NCBI GenBank assembly: GCA_009781635.1
Contig: WQXU01000011.1
Location: 1 to 64,000, forward strand
Length of the DNA stretch: 64,000 bases
DNA from: Treponema sp.
GTDB lineage: Bacteria > Spirochaetota > Spirochaetia > Treponematales > Breznakiellaceae
Reading direction: 5' to 3'
Under the pieces are notes generated by a model. The model was not told where the DNA came from. It saw only the letters and a list, made by a program, of their open reading frames with translations, and did not search any database. The position numbers and the translations under genes are program-made. Of the stretch, positions 1,994 through 39,124 are shown piece after piece (positions within the stretch are counted from its first letter, which is position 1; each line of letters starts with the position of its first letter).

Positions 1994-2275
1994 GTGATTC
2001 AAAGTTTTGGGAACAAGGATACCGAATCCTTGTTTTATAGAGAACATCCCAAAAAATTTCCTCCAGAGTTATTGCAGCGCGGCAGAAGTAAATTACTTAT
2101 TATTCATGCTGCAACGAATGAGAACGATTTGCGTATTCCTCCAGGTAATAAATTTGAAAAATTAAAAGGTGATAAAAAAGGATTATGCAGTATTCGTATA
2201 AATGATCAATGGAGAATTATATTTAAATGGAAAAATAATAATGCAAGTGATGTAACTATCACTGACTATCATTAG
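1994..2275 (+). CDS. higB: HigB/RelE-type toxin, mRNA interferase
   Basis: The 93-residue basic protein starts at GTG 1994 with GAGGG (1984-1988) upstream. It carries the HigB signatures: MIQSFGNKDTESLF at the start, LRIPPGNKFEKLKGD in the middle, and the C-terminal block YSIRINDQWRIIFKW-like (here CSIRINDQWRIIFKWK) ending in VTITDYH. Family members cut mRNA in the ribosome A site. The toxin-first order and the antitoxin start 9 bases after the stop are the usual hig arrangement. The module sits between an exported protein gene and the xylan locus, in an island that also holds a broken antitoxin, consistent with gene turnover here. Confidence 0.9.
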   Translation: MIQSFGNKDTESLFYREHPKKFPPELLQRGRSKLLIIHAATNENDLRIPPGNKFEKLKGDKKGLCSIRINDQWRIIFKWKNNNASDVTITDYH

Positions 2276-2284
2276 GAGGCTATT

Positions 2285-2608
2285 ATGAAAAAGAAACTTG
2301 ATTTAATTCCTCCGGGCTTCATCTTAAAGGAAGATTTTTTGAATCCTTTGGGAATTTCTGCGTATAAATTAAGCAAAGAGATTAATGTACAGCAAACAGC
2401 TATAAGTCAAATTCTCAAAGGCAGCCGCAGGATAACTGTAGACATGGCTATAAGGCTTTCAAGGTATTTTGGCAATTCGGCTCAGTTCTGGCTCAATCTT
2501 CAGAATTATTACGATCTTGAATCAGAACTTGAGAAAAAAGAATATTTGTTTAAAGAGATTGTTCCGTATTCCCAAGTTGCAGAAAAACCAAGGGCATATG
2601 AAATTTAA
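2285..2608 (+). CDS. higA: HigA-type XRE antitoxin
   Basis: The 107-residue protein begins after AGGAGG (2275-2280). It opens with PPGFILKEDFLNPLGISAYKL and then a helix-turn-helix, roughly residues 25-60 (LSKEINVQQTAISQILKGSR), followed by the HigA signature ITVDMAIRLSRYFGNSAQFW and NLQNYYDLE. HigA binds and neutralises HigB and represses the shared promoter. The paired ATACTATTG repeats upstream of higB are the obvious binding sites. Length and domain order are normal for the family. Confidence 0.92.
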   Translation: MKKKLDLIPPGFILKEDFLNPLGISAYKLSKEINVQQTAISQILKGSRRITVDMAIRLSRYFGNSAQFWLNLQNYYDLESELEKKEYLFKEIVPYSQVAEKPRAYEI

Positions 2609-2681: not shown

Positions 2682-3695
2682 ATGAACGATAATTTAAAAG
2701 ATGCCTGGAAAAACAGTTACAAGCTTGGCGCTGCCGTAAGCCGCAGGGTGTTAAAACACAAAGAAAATGATGCAATCATAAAAAAGCATTTTTCCAGTCT
2801 AACTGCCGAAAACTCTATGAAATTAGGTCCGATTCATCCGCATGAAAATAAATGGGACTGGAAAGAAACTGATTTTATTGCAGATTACGCAAGAGCTAAC
2901 AATCTTGCGATGCGCGGGCACACATTTATCTAGCATAATCAAAATCCAAAATGGCTTTTTACAGACAGGAATGAAGTTGTTTCAAAAAGCAAGCTGTATA
3001 AGCGTCTTGAAAATCATATTGAAAAAGTTACAATGCGTTACAACGATATTATTTATTCATGGGATGTTCTAAACGAAGTAATAGATGTTGAAAAAGGAGA
3101 TGAAAAGGGGTTTCGTCTTAGCAAGTGGTATAATATTTGCACAGAGGATGTTTATGAGTTTGCCCTAAGGCAGATGAGGCAGGCTTCTCCATCTGCAAGG
3201 CTCTTTTTTAATGATTACAATAATGAAAGCGGCCCTAAAATGGAAGCGTCCATAAAATATCTTTCAAAACTTTTGGATGCAGGTGTTCCTGTTGACGGTG
3301 TCGGAATACAGGCGCACTGGTATTACAATTTTCCTGATGAAAAAATTATAAGGGATGCGATAGAAAAATATTCTGCGCTTGGCCTTGATATTGAATTTAC
3401 GGAAGTTGACATCTCCGTTTACGGATGGAGCGAAGCAAGGGATAAAAAAGATTTCTTTTTAACAAGACCGGAAGACAGGATTATAAAGCAGGCAAAAATA
3501 TACACAGACCTTTTTACAATTGCAAGTGAGTATCCTGCGGTTAAAAATATAACAACATGGGGAGTCTCTGACTACCATACATGGCTTGATAATTTCCCTG
3601 TGAATAACAGAAAAAACTGGCCTCTTTTGTTTGATGAAAATAATAAAGAAAAAGCTGTAGTTGCGCAATTAATAAATGCAGGTAATTCTAAATGA
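2682..3695 (+). pseudogene. GH10 endo-xylanase interrupted by an in-frame amber codon
   Basis: The frame encodes a GH10 domain without a signal peptide, so the product would be cytoplasmic and act on imported xylo-oligosaccharides. It reads LTAENSMK (about 40-47), RGHTFI and then TAG at 2931-2933, then continues in the same frame with HNQNPKW, SWDVLNE (acid/base Glu132) and IEFTEVDIS (nucleophile Glu241). The stop replaces the invariant Trp of the H-T-x-x-W-H-N-Q block, a single TGG to TAG change. Everything after it is intact, so the lesion is recent, a sequencing error, or read through. A restart at Met118 (ATG 3033) would lack the first third of the barrel. The stop overlaps the next ATG (ATGA), so it is cotranscribed with the deacetylase. 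Confidence 0.85.
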
Positions 3696-4318
3696 AGTAT
3701 ATCGCTCTTAGTTTCGATGACGGACCCTGCCCGGATACCGATTACGGCGGGACTAAAGCACTGCTTGCCGTTCTTAATGAGTTTAATGTAAAAGCTTCCT
3801 TTTTTTTAATTGGAAGGAATGTAAATAACAATAAAGAACTTGCAAAAGCAATATTTAATGAAGGCCATGAGCTTGGAAATCATTCATACGATCACAATCG
3901 CCTTGGGGATTTAAGCGAAATTGAAATAGCAAAAAATATAGAGCGCGCATCGGATGAAATAAGTGAAGCTACAGGCTTTAAACCGGGACTTTTTCGGGCT
4001 CCGTATTTGAATATTAGTGACGATTTAATACGGGTTTGCGCTGGAAAAGACCTTCCCATAATTGACGGCAGTACTCATAACGACTGGCCGGGTGAACAGG
4101 AATTAATTCTAAAAAGCGTATTAAATGATCCGCAGGACGGGGAAATAATTGTTCTTCATGAAAATAACACATCGCAGGGCAATACAATGAAGGCGCTGCC
4201 GCAAATTATTAATGCTTTGCATGAAATGGATTTTAAGATAGTAACTGTAAGCCGGCTTGCAGAATTAAAGGGTATAACCCTGCAAGCCGGTCTTAGATAC
4301 AGATGTATTACTCGGTAA
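3692..4318 (+). CDS. CE4 polysaccharide deacetylase, probable acetyl-xylan/oligosaccharide esterase
   Basis: The 208-residue protein is a bare NodB-homology domain. Motif 1 is SFDDGP (7-12), with Asp as base and metal ligand. Motif 2 is GNHSYDH, supplying the two metal His. Motif 3 is FRAPY, and the last motif is IIVLHEN. There is no signal peptide, so it probably acts in the cytoplasm on imported acetylated xylo-oligomers. It is coupled to the preceding xylanase frame by a 4-base ATGA overlap, which supports a xylan rather than a peptidoglycan substrate. Its last 11 bases overlap the tail of the convergent xylanase gene. A hairpin lies inside its 3' end (4252-4290). Confidence 0.85.
   Translation: MKYIALSFDDGPCPDTDYGGTKALLAVLNEFNVKASFFLIGRNVNNNKELAKAIFNEGHELGNHSYDHNRLGDLSEIEIAKNIERASDEISEATGFKPGLFRAPYLNISDDLIRVCAGKDLPIIDGSTHNDWPGEQELILKSVLNDPQDGEIIVLHENNTSQGNTMKALPQIINALHEMDFKIVTVSRLAELKGITLQAGLRYRCITR
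4252..4290. other. Strong hairpin inside the 3' end of the deacetylase gene
   Basis: CCGGCTTGCA (4252-4261) and TGCAAGCCGG (4281-4290) are perfect inverted repeats. The loop holds a smaller GGGT/ACCC stem. It is just before the overlapping stop codons of two convergent genes and could stop transcription from either side, though no T-run follows. Confidence 0.5.
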
Positions 4319-5564
4319 AAGCCTGAAGCGACTGAATTATTTTATAATAAGAGAGTTTTACCTTGTTGCCTGAAAAAATAAGAGGCTCTCCTCTTGCGCG
4401 CCAGCTTTGAGCATCATTTAAACCCCAGAATGTTACGCGCTTAATTATATCGGAATTGTTTAAAAATACAGTAAAGAACTGGCCGTACAAATTGGCCGCA
4501 TTCTGTCTGCCTGTATTTGTAACAGCTGTAGCGGCGCTGTAGTCTCCCCAGCTCTGAGAAAGAATATCAAGTTCGCTTATGGAAATTGTTACGCCAAGAG
4601 GTTTGAATAAATTAATTGCAGCCTGTATGCTTGCAGGCGTTATACCTGTATTGTGATGGCTCTGCATGCCAATAGCCTGGATAAGCAGTTTACCGTCGTA
4701 TAGAGGATCGCTTAGCCACTGATTATTTACATCCTGCACCATGTCCCGTACAAGGGAGGCCTTATTTAACATATTCATATTGTAATCGTTGTAGTACAGT
4801 ATTGCGTTTGGATTTGCAAGGCGCGCGGCGCGGAAGCCCTCATATACAAACTCATGTCCAATTTTCATAAACCATGGATTGCCCTGTGTCCCTGTGCGCA
4901 TCGAAGTTTTCCAGTCTGAAGTTAAACCGCCGTCAGGAAAAGCCTCGTTTAAAACATCCCAAGCGTATATCCGGTCTCCAAAATGTGTTACAACGCTTGT
5001 AATGTAATTTCTCATTTGGGTAAGGGCTGTTTCTTTTGTTGTGGAGTTTGTGCGAAGATCAGCCTGCCATGAGGGAATCTGGCTGTGCCATAAGAGGGTA
5101 TGCCCTACAACTTTAAAGCCTGATGCAAGAGCTGCATTTACCATGCGATCCGCCGTTGCAAGTCCTCCTGCGTTTAAGCTTGTTGCGCTGGAACTAAGGT
5201 ATGAAGGCTTCATGTGATTTTCCGCTGTAAGCACATTGTAATGATGCGTAAGACGGTTAGTTGTTACCGCGCTTCCGCCTGCATTAACATCACCGGGATT
5301 AAAAATATTTCCAATGTCAAAATAATCTGCAAAAGTTTCTTTCAGTGCCGGAAGATCAATTATATCCAATCCAATAATTGTCACAATACATTCTGCATTG
5401 GGGCAGAAAAGAGCAGAGTCTTCTTCCTCAAGTTCTGTGCTGCAAAGCTCGCAATGCGTCAGCGGCTGTGAAGAAGCAGGGGGTTCCTCCTCGCAGGCAA
5501 TTAAAAAAGCCAATGCAGATGCAACAAGAAGTATTGCAAGAACAATTAAATATTTTATTTTCAT
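4308..5564 (-). CDS. Exported lipoprotein GH10 endo-1,4-beta-xylanase with N-terminal four-Cys knot
   Basis: The 418-residue protein has a lipoprotein signal peptide with the lipidated Cys at about 24 (AFLIAC). Next comes a small segment with Cys at 38, 41, 54 and 59 (CX2C-X12-CX4C), like a zinc ribbon, then a full GH10 barrel. Landmarks are LTAENHMKP (113-120), GHTLLWHSQ (154-162), YAWDVLNEAF with acid/base Glu207, and ISISELDIL with nucleophile Glu331. It would cleave xylan backbone at the cell surface. It is the third gene of a minus-strand operon 8253-4308 and overlaps the GH30 stop by 4 bases. Unlike its partner xylanase it carries the Cys segment, whose function is unknown. Confidence 0.93.
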   Translation of the reverse strand: MKIKYLIVLAILLVASALAFLIACEEEPPASSQPLTHCELCSTELEEEDSALFCPNAECIVTIIGLDIIDLPALKETFADYFDIGNIFNPGDVNAGGSAVTTNRLTHHYNVLTAENHMKPSYLSSSATSLNAGGLATADRMVNAALASGFKVVGHTLLWHSQIPSWQADLRTNSTTKETALTQMRNYITSVVTHFGDRIYAWDVLNEAFPDGGLTSDWKTSMRTGTQGNPWFMKIGHEFVYEGFRAARLANPNAILYYNDYNMNMLNKASLVRDMVQDVNNQWLSDPLYDGKLLIQAIGMQSHHNTGITPASIQAAINLFKPLGVTISISELDILSQSWGDYSAATAVTNTGRQNAANLYGQFFTVFLNNSDIIKRVTFWGLNDAQSWRARGEPLIFSGNKVKLSYYKIIQSLQAFTE

Positions 5565-7111
5565 TTTACTCTCCCGTAATAAGTTGTGATTGACATTGGG
5601 GGTAAGGTAACATTTGCGGTATTCCTTGATGTTCTCTGTCTGCCAATGGATTTAAGTCTTTCATTTTCTGATGTGCGAAAGGTATCAAGCCTTTCAAATT
5701 CCGCTCCGTTTAAATCAATAGAAATGGAAGATTCAGTATGTCTTTCATTAATAATAACGATTGCAATTTCGTTTGTTTTGGGATTTCTGTAGGCGCTTGA
5801 AAATACTCCCCATAAAGGAGATGCATCGCATTCAATTCTGTGCCATCCCGGCCGGATGAAACGCGAATATTGCCCCATCGCATAAAGCCTTAAGGCAGGT
5901 TTTATTTCTCTGTCGCTGCATGTAACAAGAGAGCCTCCGAATGAATCATCTTCTGTATTAAACCAGAGCCACCAGAACAAAAAGGCATTCATCTGCACAA
6001 GCGTCAAGTCCCAGTGAATCATTCTGGCAAAATAGAGCGCGTTATTAATCCCGCTTCCTGTGGGCGCATGAGGCCCTGAAGTTCCTATTTCAGTCTGCCA
6101 GAAACGCTTGCCGGACTCTATAATCCCTGGGAACTCCTTTGCGCCCGCTCTTGTAGACATATCAAAGCCTGCGTTGTACTGGTGAAGCGCAATATGCGTT
6201 ATAGCCCTCTGTGACGCAGGATCATCAAGGGAGGGTTTAATCATATCATTAAAATTGATATCGAAATTTTCAAATTCAGGCATCATTATTCCAATGCCGT
6301 TTTCTCCGGGGGTAAGGCCTTTTTTCGGGAAACGCTCTGAAATTGTTTTTATAAAATCCCTTAGATCCAGTCCGCTCCAATAAGCCGATTCGTATTCAAC
6401 CTTCCAGTTGGGTTCGTTTTGCACGGAAAGAATATCAAGGGGAGCTCCCATCTGCGATTCAAAGTTTTTCACATAATCGGCAAGAAGGTCTGCGTAATCA
6501 TTATAATGCTGTCTTTTTAATCTTCCCCAAATATCAGGTTTTGACCAGTCTATTGCATAGTCAAGCCTTGAGCTTACACCCCTTACATCTTCCTTCCATC
6601 GTGTTACGCGATTATTTGGAGTTGTCCACGGCGAACTCATAATGACAAGTTTTTCAGGGCCGGAACTTCCAAGGTTTTGAATCTGGCGGATTAAATTTCT
6701 TGTGCTTGCTATATCCCAGCTGTTCCAGTTTAATCCGAATGTTTTAACTCCGTCTGAATCTTCGGTGTAAGCATAGCTGTGATCGCTGTTTCTCATTATA
6801 AAACCGTCGTTAAGGCCTGCGTTATCATCGCCCGGAAGACGTTCACGGAATGGAATGCGGTTGCGAAGGATTGTAAGGCCTATCCCTTCATTTTTGCAGT
6901 AAAGAAGTTTAACAAGATCAGATGCAAGCTTTTCATTGCCGGGCAGCCTTGTCCATGCATTTGAACCGCCAAAGCCGTCAATTTCCTGACGGTATTCGTT
7001 GTAATCTATTTTTACAACACTTCTTGCGCTTACATTGTCATTGCTTGTACTGCACGCAGATAATAATAAAATTACGGCTGTCATGCCGGCAACCAAATAC
7101 TTTTTTCTCAT
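5561..7111 (-). CDS. Exported lipoprotein GH30 glucuronoxylanase (XynC-like)
   Basis: The 516-residue protein has a lipobox LLLSAC with Cys20. It then has the GH30 (beta/alpha)8 barrel with side beta-domain: EIDGFGGSNAW (43-53), VIMSSPWTTP (156-165), ILSVQNEPNW with acid/base Glu233, and FWQTEIGTSG with nucleophile Glu341. The C-terminal part (about 400-516) is the family's beta-sandwich. Bacterial enzymes of this type (subfamily 8) cut xylan next to 4-O-methylglucuronate side groups. The GH67 alpha-glucuronidase and UxuA encoded nearby would use the branched products. It is the middle gene of a tightly overlapping operon, with 4-base overlaps on both sides. Subfamily is inferred from similarity and context. 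Confidence 0.9.
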   Translation of the reverse strand: MRKKYLVAGMTAVILLLSACSTSNDNVSARSVVKIDYNEYRQEIDGFGGSNAWTRLPGNEKLASDLVKLLYCKNEGIGLTILRNRIPFRERLPGDDNAGLNDGFIMRNSDHSYAYTEDSDGVKTFGLNWNSWDIASTRNLIRQIQNLGSSGPEKLVIMSSPWTTPNNRVTRWKEDVRGVSSRLDYAIDWSKPDIWGRLKRQHYNDYADLLADYVKNFESQMGAPLDILSVQNEPNWKVEYESAYWSGLDLRDFIKTISERFPKKGLTPGENGIGIMMPEFENFDINFNDMIKPSLDDPASQRAITHIALHQYNAGFDMSTRAGAKEFPGIIESGKRFWQTEIGTSGPHAPTGSGINNALYFARMIHWDLTLVQMNAFLFWWLWFNTEDDSFGGSLVTCSDREIKPALRLYAMGQYSRFIRPGWHRIECDASPLWGVFSSAYRNPKTNEIAIVIINERHTESSISIDLNGAEFERLDTFRTSENERLKSIGRQRTSRNTANVTLPPMSITTYYGRVK

Positions 7112-8253
7112 AGACCAAGCGCGCTGTTAGGATTGGCAACGGCAAAAAATGACTGCTTGGGTCTTAGGGATGATGTGAAAAGGCAGGGATTTCCCATAGA
7201 TTTCCAGCTTGTTTCATCGTCTATGCCCCACATTGTTACCCGCGTTATGTGTCTGCTGTATTCCTTAAAAAGATTGAAAAGTTCCGCATATTTTATTGCC
7301 TGCTGGCGCTGTTCCATATCACTCATGCGCGTATCTTTTCCGGGCCCGAAAGAGCCGCTGGAGATTCCCTTTGTATCAACGTCAAGCTCGCTTATGTCAA
7401 TTCTGATTCCAAGTTCAATAAATCTTTCAATTGATGCGCGCACATTGGGAATGCTTGTCCCCGAACCGTAATGCGCCTGCATACCAACGCCGTCAATAAG
7501 GTTTCTTGTGTTGCCTTCAGCTTTGTATTTGTCATTAAGTTCTTTTATCATGTTTGCAACTACCTGCGCCTTTCTCTGGTTGTCAAGGTTGTAGTCATTG
7601 TAGTAGAGCATGACATCAGGGTCTGCGGCCCTTGCTGTTCTGAAAGCAAGCTCAATATAATCAGGTCCCATTGCTCTGAACCAGCCTGAATCCCTGCGCA
7701 GCTGGTTTCTCCAGTCCTGCAGATTTGTAGCAGGTTCGACGCGGGATAATACAGCTTCGTTTACAACATCCCAGGAATGAATTTTTCCCTTGTAATGAGC
7801 CATTACTGTATTAATATGATCTATCATAGTCTGCCTTACCTGCTGTTCCGTACCCTGTGTCATCCATGCGTGGGTCTGGTTATGCCATACAAGCGTATGA
7901 CCGTGCACTATAATATTGCTCTCTGTCATTATGTTTAAAAGTCTGTCTGCGTTGGAAAAATTGTACTGGCCGCCTCTTTCACGCGGAGCTAAGTGGTCAG
8001 GCTTCATCGAGTTTTCGGCAGTAACGGTATTAAAATGAGTTCTAAGAATGTCAAAATGCCTTCCTGAAGTATATGTATTATTTATTATATTTCCGACAAG
8101 AAAGTGATCTTTATAAATTGTTTTTAACGGAAATCTTTCATGATTCTGAGCAGTGCCTGCTGTGCTGTTTGATGATGCGCCGCCTGTTGCGCAGGATGTT
8201 ATGCCAATAATCAAAAATGCAAGCGTCAGAACTGAAAAAATTTTTATTTTCAT
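7108..8253 (-). CDS. Exported lipoprotein GH10 endo-1,4-beta-xylanase
   Basis: The 381-residue protein begins with a lipoprotein signal (ITSC, Cys21) and a short Ser/Thr/Gly linker, then one GH10 domain. It shows VTAENSMKPDH (77-87), HGHTLVWHNQ (117-126), SWDVVNEAVL with acid/base Glu166, and RIDISELDV with nucleophile Glu289. It is the first gene of the minus-strand xylanase operon. A ribosome site AGAGGT sits 9 bases before the ATG. The start faces the GH2 gene across 106 bases, so the secreted and intracellular branches of the pathway share a divergent control region. It retains the Trp (W123) that is mutated to a stop in the cytoplasmic paralogue. Confidence 0.94.
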   Translation of the reverse strand: MKIKIFSVLTLAFLIIGITSCATGGASSNSTAGTAQNHERFPLKTIYKDHFLVGNIINNTYTSGRHFDILRTHFNTVTAENSMKPDHLAPRERGGQYNFSNADRLLNIMTESNIIVHGHTLVWHNQTHAWMTQGTEQQVRQTMIDHINTVMAHYKGKIHSWDVVNEAVLSRVEPATNLQDWRNQLRRDSGWFRAMGPDYIELAFRTARAADPDVMLYYNDYNLDNQRKAQVVANMIKELNDKYKAEGNTRNLIDGVGMQAHYGSGTSIPNVRASIERFIELGIRIDISELDVDTKGISSGSFGPGKDTRMSDMEQRQQAIKYAELFNLFKEYSRHITRVTMWGIDDETSWKSMGNPCLFTSSLRPKQSFFAVANPNSALGL

Positions 8254-16755: not shown

Positions 16756-17042
16756 TAAAATTCCTCCGAATAGATTTTCATGTCCTGAATGCGTACATGC
16801 GTTTCATTTTCTATCATGGCAAATGCTTTCTGAAGTACAGTTTCTCCGAAAGAGCGCGAGTTGGAAACAAGCGCTCCGCCTATTTGAGAAAATGAAAGAG
16901 AGTCCTGAAGATCAACCTCGGCTGCGCTTAAGTAAAAACGCCTTTTTAATTTATCCAGAATGGACTTTAAAACACGGCGTTTTTCCTTGATGTTCCGGGC
17001 ATCAGGAATTTCAAAAATTATCTGTATCATTGAAACTACCAT
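16755..17042 (-). CDS. DUF503/YlxP-like small protein
   Basis: From Met at 17042 the product is 95 residues beginning MVVSMIQIIFEIPDARNIKE. It has the DUF503 pattern: NIKEKRRVLKSILDKLKRRF, then VAAAEVDLQDSL-like (here LSAAEVDLQDSLSFSQIGGALVS) and a final strand. Homologues such as YlxP sit beside translation genes in Firmicutes and have been linked to ribosome maturation; here the neighbour is a lipoprotein gene instead. An in-frame Met 16 codons earlier (17090) would reach into the divergent gene and is less likely. No clear ribosome site precedes either candidate start. Confidence 0.72.
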   Translation of the reverse strand: MVVSMIQIIFEIPDARNIKEKRRVLKSILDKLKRRFYLSAAEVDLQDSLSFSQIGGALVSNSRSFGETVLQKAFAMIENETHVRIQDMKIYSEEF

Positions 17043-17067
17043 GGAAATACAGTTAATATAGCATAAG

Positions 17068-20000
17068 ATGCCTGTTTTGCGAAGAGCCATCGTATTTTTT
17101 CCCGTCCTGCTTTCTGTAATTACAGTAATATTTGCTCAGCAGGATGCGGCAACAGAATTAAATATAGATGATTTAAGGCGAAGGATTACAGGAGAGGCGC
17201 CGCAGGAACTTTTAAATCATTCCATTGGTGATTCAAATGTTTCACTTTTTATGACAGGTTCCTGGAAGGGAGATTTACAGAGCAATTTGGGTTTTTCACG
17301 TTCTCCAATAGGAACAGGCCTTATATCTCCTGAAACACCCCTTCTTTTCAAACAGGAAGTTGATTTATCATTATCGCTGTGGATAGATGAAAGATGGTTT
17401 GTAGAAGCGAATTTTCTTGATGATTCAAACCAGAATACTTACCGCGCAGGATACATGGGAAAGCCGGGTGAATTTTTGCAGTATGCGGGAGTTGGAAATA
17501 CAGGCCTTGATTTTCCTGTGTTCCCCTATTTGGATCTCGGCGGAGATTCTCCCTCATCATTTGGTTTTTACAGCCGTTTCGGCTCCAATGATTTGGATTT
17601 TCACGCCCTGTTCAGGTATGATGCAGCCTCAAGGGAAGAGCGTGTTTTTTCAGGCAGCAGGGAAAGAACATACAGCGATGTACAGCCAGGAAAATTTATA
17701 CACGGAGTTTCTTTTGTGCTGCCTGACACAGACATAGAATCGGAAATTATTGTTTACATAGAAGATGAAAAAGGCTCTATCACAGACTCTGACGGAAGAA
17801 GATGGCGGCTTGCATCAAATAGCGAGTATGCCGCAGGAAGAGCGCAGGGTCTTCTGGAATTGAGTATAAGACCTGACGGCATGGTAGCAGTTTCATACTC
17901 AAAGAGTTCAAACAGGCCCTGGCTTGATTCAATGGGAAGTTATGACAGAACATCATACGGTTTTTTAACTGAAGTTCAAAACTGGTTCGACCCTTCTGCC
18001 GATCGAAGTAAAATAAAACTGGAAGATTATATACAATGCGGCAACGGCAGCGGGCCTTCTTCAAAACCAGGTGAAGTTATTTTCAATTCTGTTTACGCTC
18101 TTGTAATTTATCAGCCGGGAACATTTTCTGCCTTTGAAAGACGCAGCCGTTATGATGCATTTTCAAGTACATCGGAAAGAGCAGCTCTTATAAGGCTTTC
18201 TACAGGAACGCAGATAAATGGTTTTGAACTGGTTCGTCTGTATGATACTGCGTTTGACTTCCCGGCCGGTGTAAGCCAGAGAGCTGTATATGAGCTTGTG
18301 CGCACAGGAGGCTTTGATCCCCGCCATCCCGGAACAAGCTGGCCACTTGCGCAGGAATACCCGCAAATATATCTTGCACCCTCTGATGTTTTTACAGGGG
18401 ATATCTCTTTGCGTTTTACAAACTATAACAGCGTAAGCGGATACTTTATCGGAACGGATGTAATCCCGGGATCAATACAGATTTGGAGAAGCGGAATTCA
18501 GGATGCCAATTTTAATTATAATCTGTCATCAGGAGAAGTTTCGCTTCAGGGAGCAGCAGGACAGAACGAAGTTATACGCATAACATATTTAAAAAGAAGC
18601 GATGGCATGAGAACAGGAAGCATCGCAACAGGAATAGGCGCGATTTACAGTAACAGGGCAAGTCCGTTTTCCGCAAGAGCGGCTGTTGGCATCCGCTGGA
18701 ATTTGACAGATGATTCATTTACAGAAGAGAATCAGACCAGTACAGGAACTGTAGGACTTGGCGCGAAAATGGCCTTAAATTATGATTATTTAAAAGCGCA
18801 TGTTACAGGAGGGTTTACCTTTGTACAAACAGATACTACAGGCCTCTACCGTGCCGCCGGAATGGAAGGGCATGAAACAATAGTATACTTTCATGCGGAT
18901 ACCTGTTTTATTTCAAATCAAAACGCAGAATTTAACATTGCTAACCGCGCCGATTTAATTTTCAGAAATTATTACAACAGTACGGTTCTTGGATCCAATC
19001 TTATGCCGCTTGACTGGAATGCTCCTGTAGTTTCGGGAATTGAAAGACCCTATCCTGCAAAAGATCCGATGTTCGGCGATACAACTGTACTGGTTGCAGA
19101 GTTTAGACTTGACAGCGCTGAAAAATGGACAGGGTATCAGGTTCCCCTGGGCGTATACAGCCAGATTATATCCGGAGCTGGAGAAATTGAAATCCCTTTC
19201 CGGTTTTACGATATTAAGGGAGATACCGGAAATTTCAGGGTAATTGTTCAGATAGGCTCTCTTTCCGGCAGTGATTTTCATTTTTCGGAAAACCCCTCAT
19301 TAATATGGGAGAGGCAGCTCTTTCCTGCGAACAGGGATTTTGATACAAATACGCATATAGCAAAATTTACGCTTGATGAAAGTGACAGATTAAAACTTGC
19401 AGATGCAAAATATATGCGCCTTATTATTGCATATGACGGCACACAGGATGAAATTAATGGCCGTGTTATTTTAGCTCCGCCCATTGTAAGAGGTTCGGCA
19501 TTTAAGGCGCTTACTCTTGAAAACCAGATTGTAAATGCCCTTACAGACAGAGTAAGAACATCTGAAACAAGGGAGATGCATGATTCTTCTCTTGAATCTT
19601 CATTCTATGCTTCAATAATAAAAAGGCTTCATCCAATCGCAGGTACGCAAAGAATTCTGGAAATTGAATGGAAAGATTTGGAAAGCGGAGTATCAGCCGG
19701 CGCTGACGGCAGAATAGGGGAGATACCCTTAAAAGAATACCGTGAGCTGTCATTCTTTGTTAAAGGCCCTAAACCCGAAGATGCGGCGGATGTTATTACA
19801 GGAGATCTTCGTTTTATAATCGCATCAGGCCCTGAATCGATTTTAAATCCGCAGCTGGAAGCGCGCATACCATTGACGGCATTCAGCGCGGAAACCTGGA
19901 GAAAGGTTACGATTCGTTATCAGGGGAACAATACGGGGATTAGAGTAGACGGAGGGGATGCAACAGGCGCTGTCTTAACTTACAGGCAGTTAAGCGGCTC

Positions 20001-37853: not shown

Positions 37854-39124
37854 TTATATAACTGTCCCCGGATATAAAATTGTATTTTTTGGAATAACGA
37901 TGATTCCATCTACAATATAGTAATGACCGTAATTGCCGTCTGTGCGTTTTATGTCGTCTACTCCGATACGGCAGCCTTCGCCGACACAGACATTCTTGTC
38001 AATAATAGCGCCTTTTATAATGGCGCCTCTTCCAATTCCTACATTGGGAATCCTGGCTTCGGCATTTTGATTTTTTTGTATTTCAGTTTCGTAATAGTCC
38101 GCGCCCATACAGACAACGCCGTTAAGGCTTGAACCGGTTTCGATGATAGTACGAATACCGACAATTGAATTTGTAATATTTGCATTTGTTATGATACAAC
38201 CTTCTGCTGCAATAGACTGGTTCATGTTGGAGAAATTCATTTTTGAAGGCGGAAGGTTGCGCATATGCGTAAATATGGGTTTATGTTCATCATAAAAATC
38301 GAAACGCGGCTTTAAGGTAGTTAATTCAAGATTGGTGTCGTAGAAATTTTTAATGGTTCCGATATCTTCCCAGTAACCGTCAAAAAGATATGCATTTACC
38401 TTGAGTTTATTAATGGCGGCAGGAATTACCTCTTTTCCAAAATCGGTAAGTTCATTGGAAAGACAATCATCCATTGCTTTTGCATTAAAGACATAAATAC
38501 CCATGGAGGCAAGGTAACAGTCATCTTTATTTTTTTCTGTTAAAAGCTCCGCAGGCGCTTTATAATCTGATATGTCTTTTGCAGGACCTGGTTTTTCAAG
38601 GAACTCTGTTATCTGATTTTTTTATCTACTTTCATAATTCCAAGATCGCTTGCATTATCCCTTGTGACGCCGGTGCAGGCAATGGTAATTGCAGCCTGGG
38701 AATCAATATGGCTTTTTAGGAGTTCCTGCAAGTCCATTCTGTAAAGCTGGTCACCGGAAAGAATCATGTAATATGAAGGGTTTTGCGTTCTGAAGTGAGG
38801 AAAGTTTTTGCGGACAGCATCGGCAGTTCCTTCATACCAGCCGGAATGTTCGAATGTCTGTTCGGCTGCGAGAATCTCGACAAAGCCGTTTGTAAAAGAA
38901 TCAAAAACATAGGTCTGGCCTATATGAAGATGAAGGGAAGCTGAATTAAACTGGGTAACAACATAAATTTGTCTTAAATTGGCATTTATACAGTTGGAGA
39001 TGGGAATATCGACAAGACGATACTTGCCGCCGAAGGGAACAGCAGGTTTTGAACGGAATTGTGTTAATGGAAACAGACGGGTTCCCTTGCCGCCGCCTAA
39101 AATTATAGACAAGACCTCGGACAT
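37854..39124 (-). pseudogene. glgC: Glucose-1-phosphate adenylyltransferase, frameshifted at an A7 run
   Basis: From ATG 39124 (after GGAGGTGG) the first part has the catalytic start ILGGGKGTRLFPLTQFRSKPAVPFGG, ISNC and YEGTADAVRKNF. It stops at codon KIR-TAA right after MKVDKK. The other part (to 37854) continues the family sequence: MGIYVFNAKAMDDCL, YWEDIGTIKNFYDTNLEL and the left-handed beta-helix repeats to the end. One extra A in the run at 38617-38623 (A7 to A8 on the coding strand) fuses them into a complete ~424-residue enzyme: DKKNQITEFLEKP. It makes ADP-glucose for glycogen. A sequencing error, phase variation or a pseudogene fit equally. Confidence 0.88.
38617..38623. repeat. Homopolymer at the glgC frameshift
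   Basis: Seven T on the plus strand (A7 on the coding strand). Eight would restore the full reading frame. Slippage-prone position between the nucleotidyltransferase and beta-helix domains. Confidence 0.85.

Follow-up and report, generated by a model that had tools for sequence, protein, structure and literature searches.

We describe a GH10 xylanase gene of a treponeme that is interrupted by a single in-frame TAG codon at a position where all orthologues found encode tryptophan. We are confident that this TAG is an isolated nonsense codon without a decoder, due either to a base error or to a very recent null mutation, and these two origins appear about equally probable. The window analysed spans positions 1 to 64,000 of contig C11 of a draft assembly (2.77 Mb, 51 contigs), and the TAG lies 2.9 kb from the contig end. 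Read from the sequence, it forms codon 84 in frame with the ATG at 2682 and replaces the Trp of the GHTFI-W-HNQ block, and the frame's own stop is a TGA at 3693-3695 (Table 1). The readthrough protein matches positions 2-309 of the 311 of the Pfam GH10 profile. Thus, a single conserved domain spans the stop, which makes the frame more than a chance open frame. Downstream of the TAG the frame encodes DVLNEVI (residues 128-134) and EFTEVDIS (residues 238-245), which we take to be the blocks that carry the catalytic Glu residues of GH10 enzymes; the product as written ends at residue 83 and so contains neither. A first-pass annotation of this DNA had reported the replacement of TGG by TAG in an otherwise full xylanase, 254 further open codons and both catalytic Glu in frame downstream, and our analysis bears out this description, the 254 codons being 253 sense codons and the TGA.

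Table 1. Coordinates of the features discussed (window positions unless a contig is named)
Feature	Position	Strand	Evidence or remark
HigB-like toxin frame	1994..2275	+	PF05015, E 6.3e-23; ends in an ordinary TAG stop just upstream of the xylanase
Helix-turn-helix protein, HigA-like by position	2285..2608	+	PF01381, E 1.6e-9
GH10 xylanase frame, one interruption	2682..3695	+	PF00331, E 2.9e-86; 337 residues with readthrough
83 codons 5' of the stop	2682..2930	+	predicted product without either catalytic-Glu block
In-frame TAG, codon 84	2931..2933	+	TGG (Trp) in 8/8 orthologues
253 sense codons and TGA 3' of the stop	2934..3695	+	conservation like that of orthologues; first in-frame ATG at 3033
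CE4-type polysaccharide deacetylase	3692..4318	+	PF01522, E 5.4e-32; overlaps the xylanase end by ATGA
Second GH10 gene of the cluster, uninterrupted	4308..5564	-	
Third GH10 gene of the cluster, uninterrupted	7108..8253	-	
glgC (glucose-1-phosphate adenylyltransferase)	37854..39124	-	one-base deletion, compared with G008
prfA (release factor 1)	G000 contig C23, about 17041-18107 (loci L092, L153)		divided between two frames; one base missing beside a C run

The xylanase frame opens straight into the GH10 domain, and its sequence leaves no space for a signal peptide. In a PDB search the best match was 5y3x (E 6.7e-85), and the intracellular xylanase IXT6 (1n82/2q8x) also scored high. Like these intracellular GH10 endo-beta-1,4-xylanases, the predicted protein has the full domain and the motif blocks of the family. 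Unlike them, it has a stop codon for the Trp, whereas W stands at this position in the three PDB alignments shown.

Ninety-eight genomes, including the genome itself, were searched for related genes. Matches were obtained in 40 of them, and orthologues (59-70% identity) in seven genomes besides this one, each belonging to the genus. An eighth orthologue (60% identity) came from the named record L043; the scan of named-record contigs gave four loci, from relatives termed Treponema or Spirochaetia, and L041 and L042 were left out of the orthologue count since they were taken to be the same as the G008 and G005 matches. All eight orthologues have W encoded by TGG at the position of codon 84. Among 50 other GH10 rows spanning this column, 48 likewise have W/TGG, and one gapped row (L044) has Ala. 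The remaining row, L021 (G017, contig C110), is a GH10 relative with Gln (CAA) for the Trp. The column is thus nearly, not strictly, invariant, and the tryptophan described earlier as invariant is better called near-invariant. A genus-wide search gave no second record of the species, no similar DNA was found in plasmids, and an exact 30-base pattern from the xylanase gene was absent from viral contigs. Internal stops occurred, among the matches listed, in this xylanase and in one match of G016 (C17:13381-14352); the latter has four in-frame stops and is a more decayed pseudogene.

The extent of decay was measured by comparing each of the nine sequences in turn with the positions invariant in the other eight. 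The xylanase gene departs at 2 of 113 such positions (0/20 before the stop and 2/93 after it), and the orthologues, taken one by one, depart at 1-8 of 112-119. Neither a frameshift nor a second stop is present in the frame. Nonsynonymous differences make up a proportion of 0.17-0.26 after the stop, no higher than the 0.26-0.32 before it; synonymous sites are nearly saturated. Under a simple neutral model, which assumes 2.2 nonsynonymous sites per codon, drift of 0.05 substitutions per site predicts about 12 violations (P(<=2) = 0.0004), and on this model drift beyond about 0.05 substitutions per site would be unlikely. The lack of decay leaves three options for the stop: that it arose very recently, that it does not exist in the organism, or that it is read through.

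For this reason an older pseudogene that merely looks intact was rejected: two departures at 113 invariant positions in a frame free of further lesions make it extremely unlikely. The lower conservation of residues 1-83 (53/83 identical to L012, compared with 180/250 for the remainder) would be in its favour. However, the same difference is seen in all eight orthologue pairs and looks like ordinary variation along the domain. A programmed truncation was rejected as well, and its probability is negligible. It would require that the 83-residue product, or a protein restarted downstream, has a function of its own, and apart from the ATG at 3033 nothing was found in favour of this. The stop is absent from all eight orthologues, and a protein restarted at 3033 would be without 117 N-terminal residues of the barrel, the conserved GHT-W-H block among them.

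Furthermore, the possible decoding of UAG in this genome was assessed. All anticodons of the 42 tRNAs found were read, and none is CUA; the one tRNA-Trp found has the anticodon CCA in an ordinary anticodon stem. The search scored 150 of 170 candidates and left 20 weak ones unscored, and some expected members, Ile GAT and Ala TGC, are missing from the assembled set. This set is probably incomplete, and the absence of a CUA tRNA is strong but not absolute evidence. Pyrrolysyl-tRNA synthetase (PylS, TIGR02367) gave no match in the genome, in a search whose control gave a match at the curated cut-off for one genome out of 14, and pyrrolysine coding was rejected on this basis. In a 243-kb sample, 33 of 197 genes terminate with TAG; a second count gave 49 of 252 genes for this genome, 99 of 481 for G008 and 60 of 242 for other relatives. 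At sense positions, the 137,556 homologous coding bases compared in this genome contain a single in-frame TAG. With TAG a common stop and this lone exception, a general reassignment of UAG was rejected. The bacterial code changes given as known in the introduction of PMC8629427 all reassigned UGA.

A suppressor tRNA inserting an amino acid at UAG, which had been put forward in the first-pass annotation together with a search for it, would agree with the intact frame beyond the stop, and such a tRNA could have escaped detection among the unscored candidates or the absent tRNAs. The search for it, however, gave 0/42, the sole tRNA-Trp found is unmutated, PylS had no match and TAG serves as an ordinary stop in the genome. 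The CAR-YYA readthrough motif, which comes from eukaryotic viruses, is also absent after the stop. Suppression is thus unsupported, and we regard it as very unlikely.

One fact suits readthrough and speaks against both error and null mutation: prfA, which encodes the release factor that reads UAG (release factor 1, RF1), is split between two frames in the assembly of this genome. Across 39 genomes of the genus, prfA is near full-length in 34, cut at contig ends in two and without a match over the cut-off in two; it is frameshifted within a contig only in this genome, and the junction is in frame in all 30 loci of relatives examined. In E. coli without RF1, according to PMC6207430, UAG is met by near-cognate suppression (Gln, Tyr, also Asp and Val), frameshifting and rescue. 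If RF1 were truly inactivated in the treponeme, UAG would terminate poorly, near-cognate tRNAs would read codon 84 and some xylanase would be made. The insertion of Gln in RF1-less E. coli would be in keeping with this, as would the Gln of L021 at the very position of the stop. A true loss would be a natural first step to UAG reassignment, for which the introduction of PMC8629427 names no bacterial case.

However, TAG ends about a fifth of the genes here, as in the relatives, the HigB-like gene just upstream of the xylanase being one of them, and an in-frame TAG occurs only once in 138 kb of homologous coding sequence. The part of prfA 3' of the shift is 98% identical to that of a relative and hence is not decaying, and the missing base falls at a C run, where sequence errors are typical; the deletion is probably an assembly (indel) error. 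Moreover, RF1 is essential in most bacteria. A true inactivation of RF1 with readthrough of codon 84 is thus extremely improbable. The same slight chance applies to the wider picture of a termite-gut treponeme that has just lost RF1, in which UAG would be leaky genome-wide and small amounts of xylanase would be produced that carry Gln or Tyr instead of the active-site Trp. The treponeme resembles the RF1-less recoded E. coli, as far as PMC6207430 describes it, in combining a broken-looking prfA with an in-frame UAG, and differs from it in that TAG is still a common stop and that an assembly error probably accounts for the prfA lesion. The xylanase stop would matter only if the prfA frameshift proved real.

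The background of comparable lesions was determined by comparing sampled DNA with genes of relatives (40-98% identity), at least 6/15 being identical on each side of the stop. This genome has one lone stop, that of the xylanase, and two frameshifts (prfA and glgC) in its 137,556 homologous coding bases; G008, a near relative, has two lone stops and no frameshift in 143,218 bases, and no lesion was kept in 156,032 bases of other relatives. A TAA from the other relatives (L146:15578) was left out, being situated just upstream of a likely start (GGEMK). The stricter filter dropped mostly stops with a single reference, and L136:1087 of G008, with two references, was among those dropped. The lone stops of G008 are a TGA at L137:9163, preceded by 310 open codons and followed by 544, and a TAA at L173:14042, preceded by 161 and followed by 398; by eye, the genes look like those of a Clp ATPase and a phosphofructokinase. 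Thus, the lone stops in this genome and G008 form a background in conserved genes of such drafts. Their frequency in draft treponeme genomes, roughly one in every 70-140 kb of homologous coding sequence, calls for caution, and they should not be taken as recoding without a decoding tRNA.

The lesion in glgC lies at the A run 38617-38623, which has seven A here and eight in G008 (L137), with 94-96% protein identity on either side, and is probably an indel error. Thus, besides the xylanase, the window has at least one further conserved gene that is broken. With two frameshifts here and none in the 299 kb of relatives, the difference is not significant (P = 0.10), and a frameshift excess in this genome is suggestive only. 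PMC9600527 describes run-length deletions as the error usually seen in assemblies from long reads, which would apply here if the draft was built from such reads. The TAG of the xylanase is a substitution and not an error of the run-length kind.

The two remaining readings, a recent null and a base-calling error, had already been named beside suppression in the first-pass annotation, and both fit the lack of decay and the other likely errors in the assembly. Against an error stands that prfA and glgC each lack one base at a short run, whereas the TAG is a substitution, so that these two give no sign of a raised rate of substitution errors. Against a real null stands that core genes are hit too, namely prfA here and, in G008, two genes that look like housekeeping genes; this is a hint that lesions in assemblies of this kind are often not real. 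With one lesion and no decay, the gene resembles both recent single-nonsense pseudogenes and draft-assembly errors; conserved genes elsewhere in this genome and in G008 likewise show lone stops or single-base deletions. As in a recent null, the stop is absent from the orthologues (8/8 TGG) and the gene is undecayed (2/113).

We propose that the TAG is an isolated nonsense codon and that purifying selection acted on the xylanase gene up to the present. If the base is real, translation would end after residue 83, giving a fragment without catalytic residues and a null allele; activity would probably be lost, and this loss tolerated through redundancy with the other GH10 genes. If it is not, the TAG would represent an error of the consensus or the assembly, or else a minor strain variant. 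Elsewhere in the genome, five further GH10 matches are free of stops and span the profile at least from position 20 to position 307, and these near-complete matches make the loss of one xylanase plausible. As it stands, the TAG has little consequence, affecting one spare xylanase gene with a stop that is either wrong or new.

The xylanase frame and the CE4 frame overlap by four bases, and the CE4 frame is open. The coupled CE4 gene had been called live earlier, which appears right in the sense of an open, conserved frame. If the stop is real, it could lower CE4 translation by polarity. Among the stretches of 11 relatives searched, only that of G031 has a CE4 gene beside the xylanase (57% identity).
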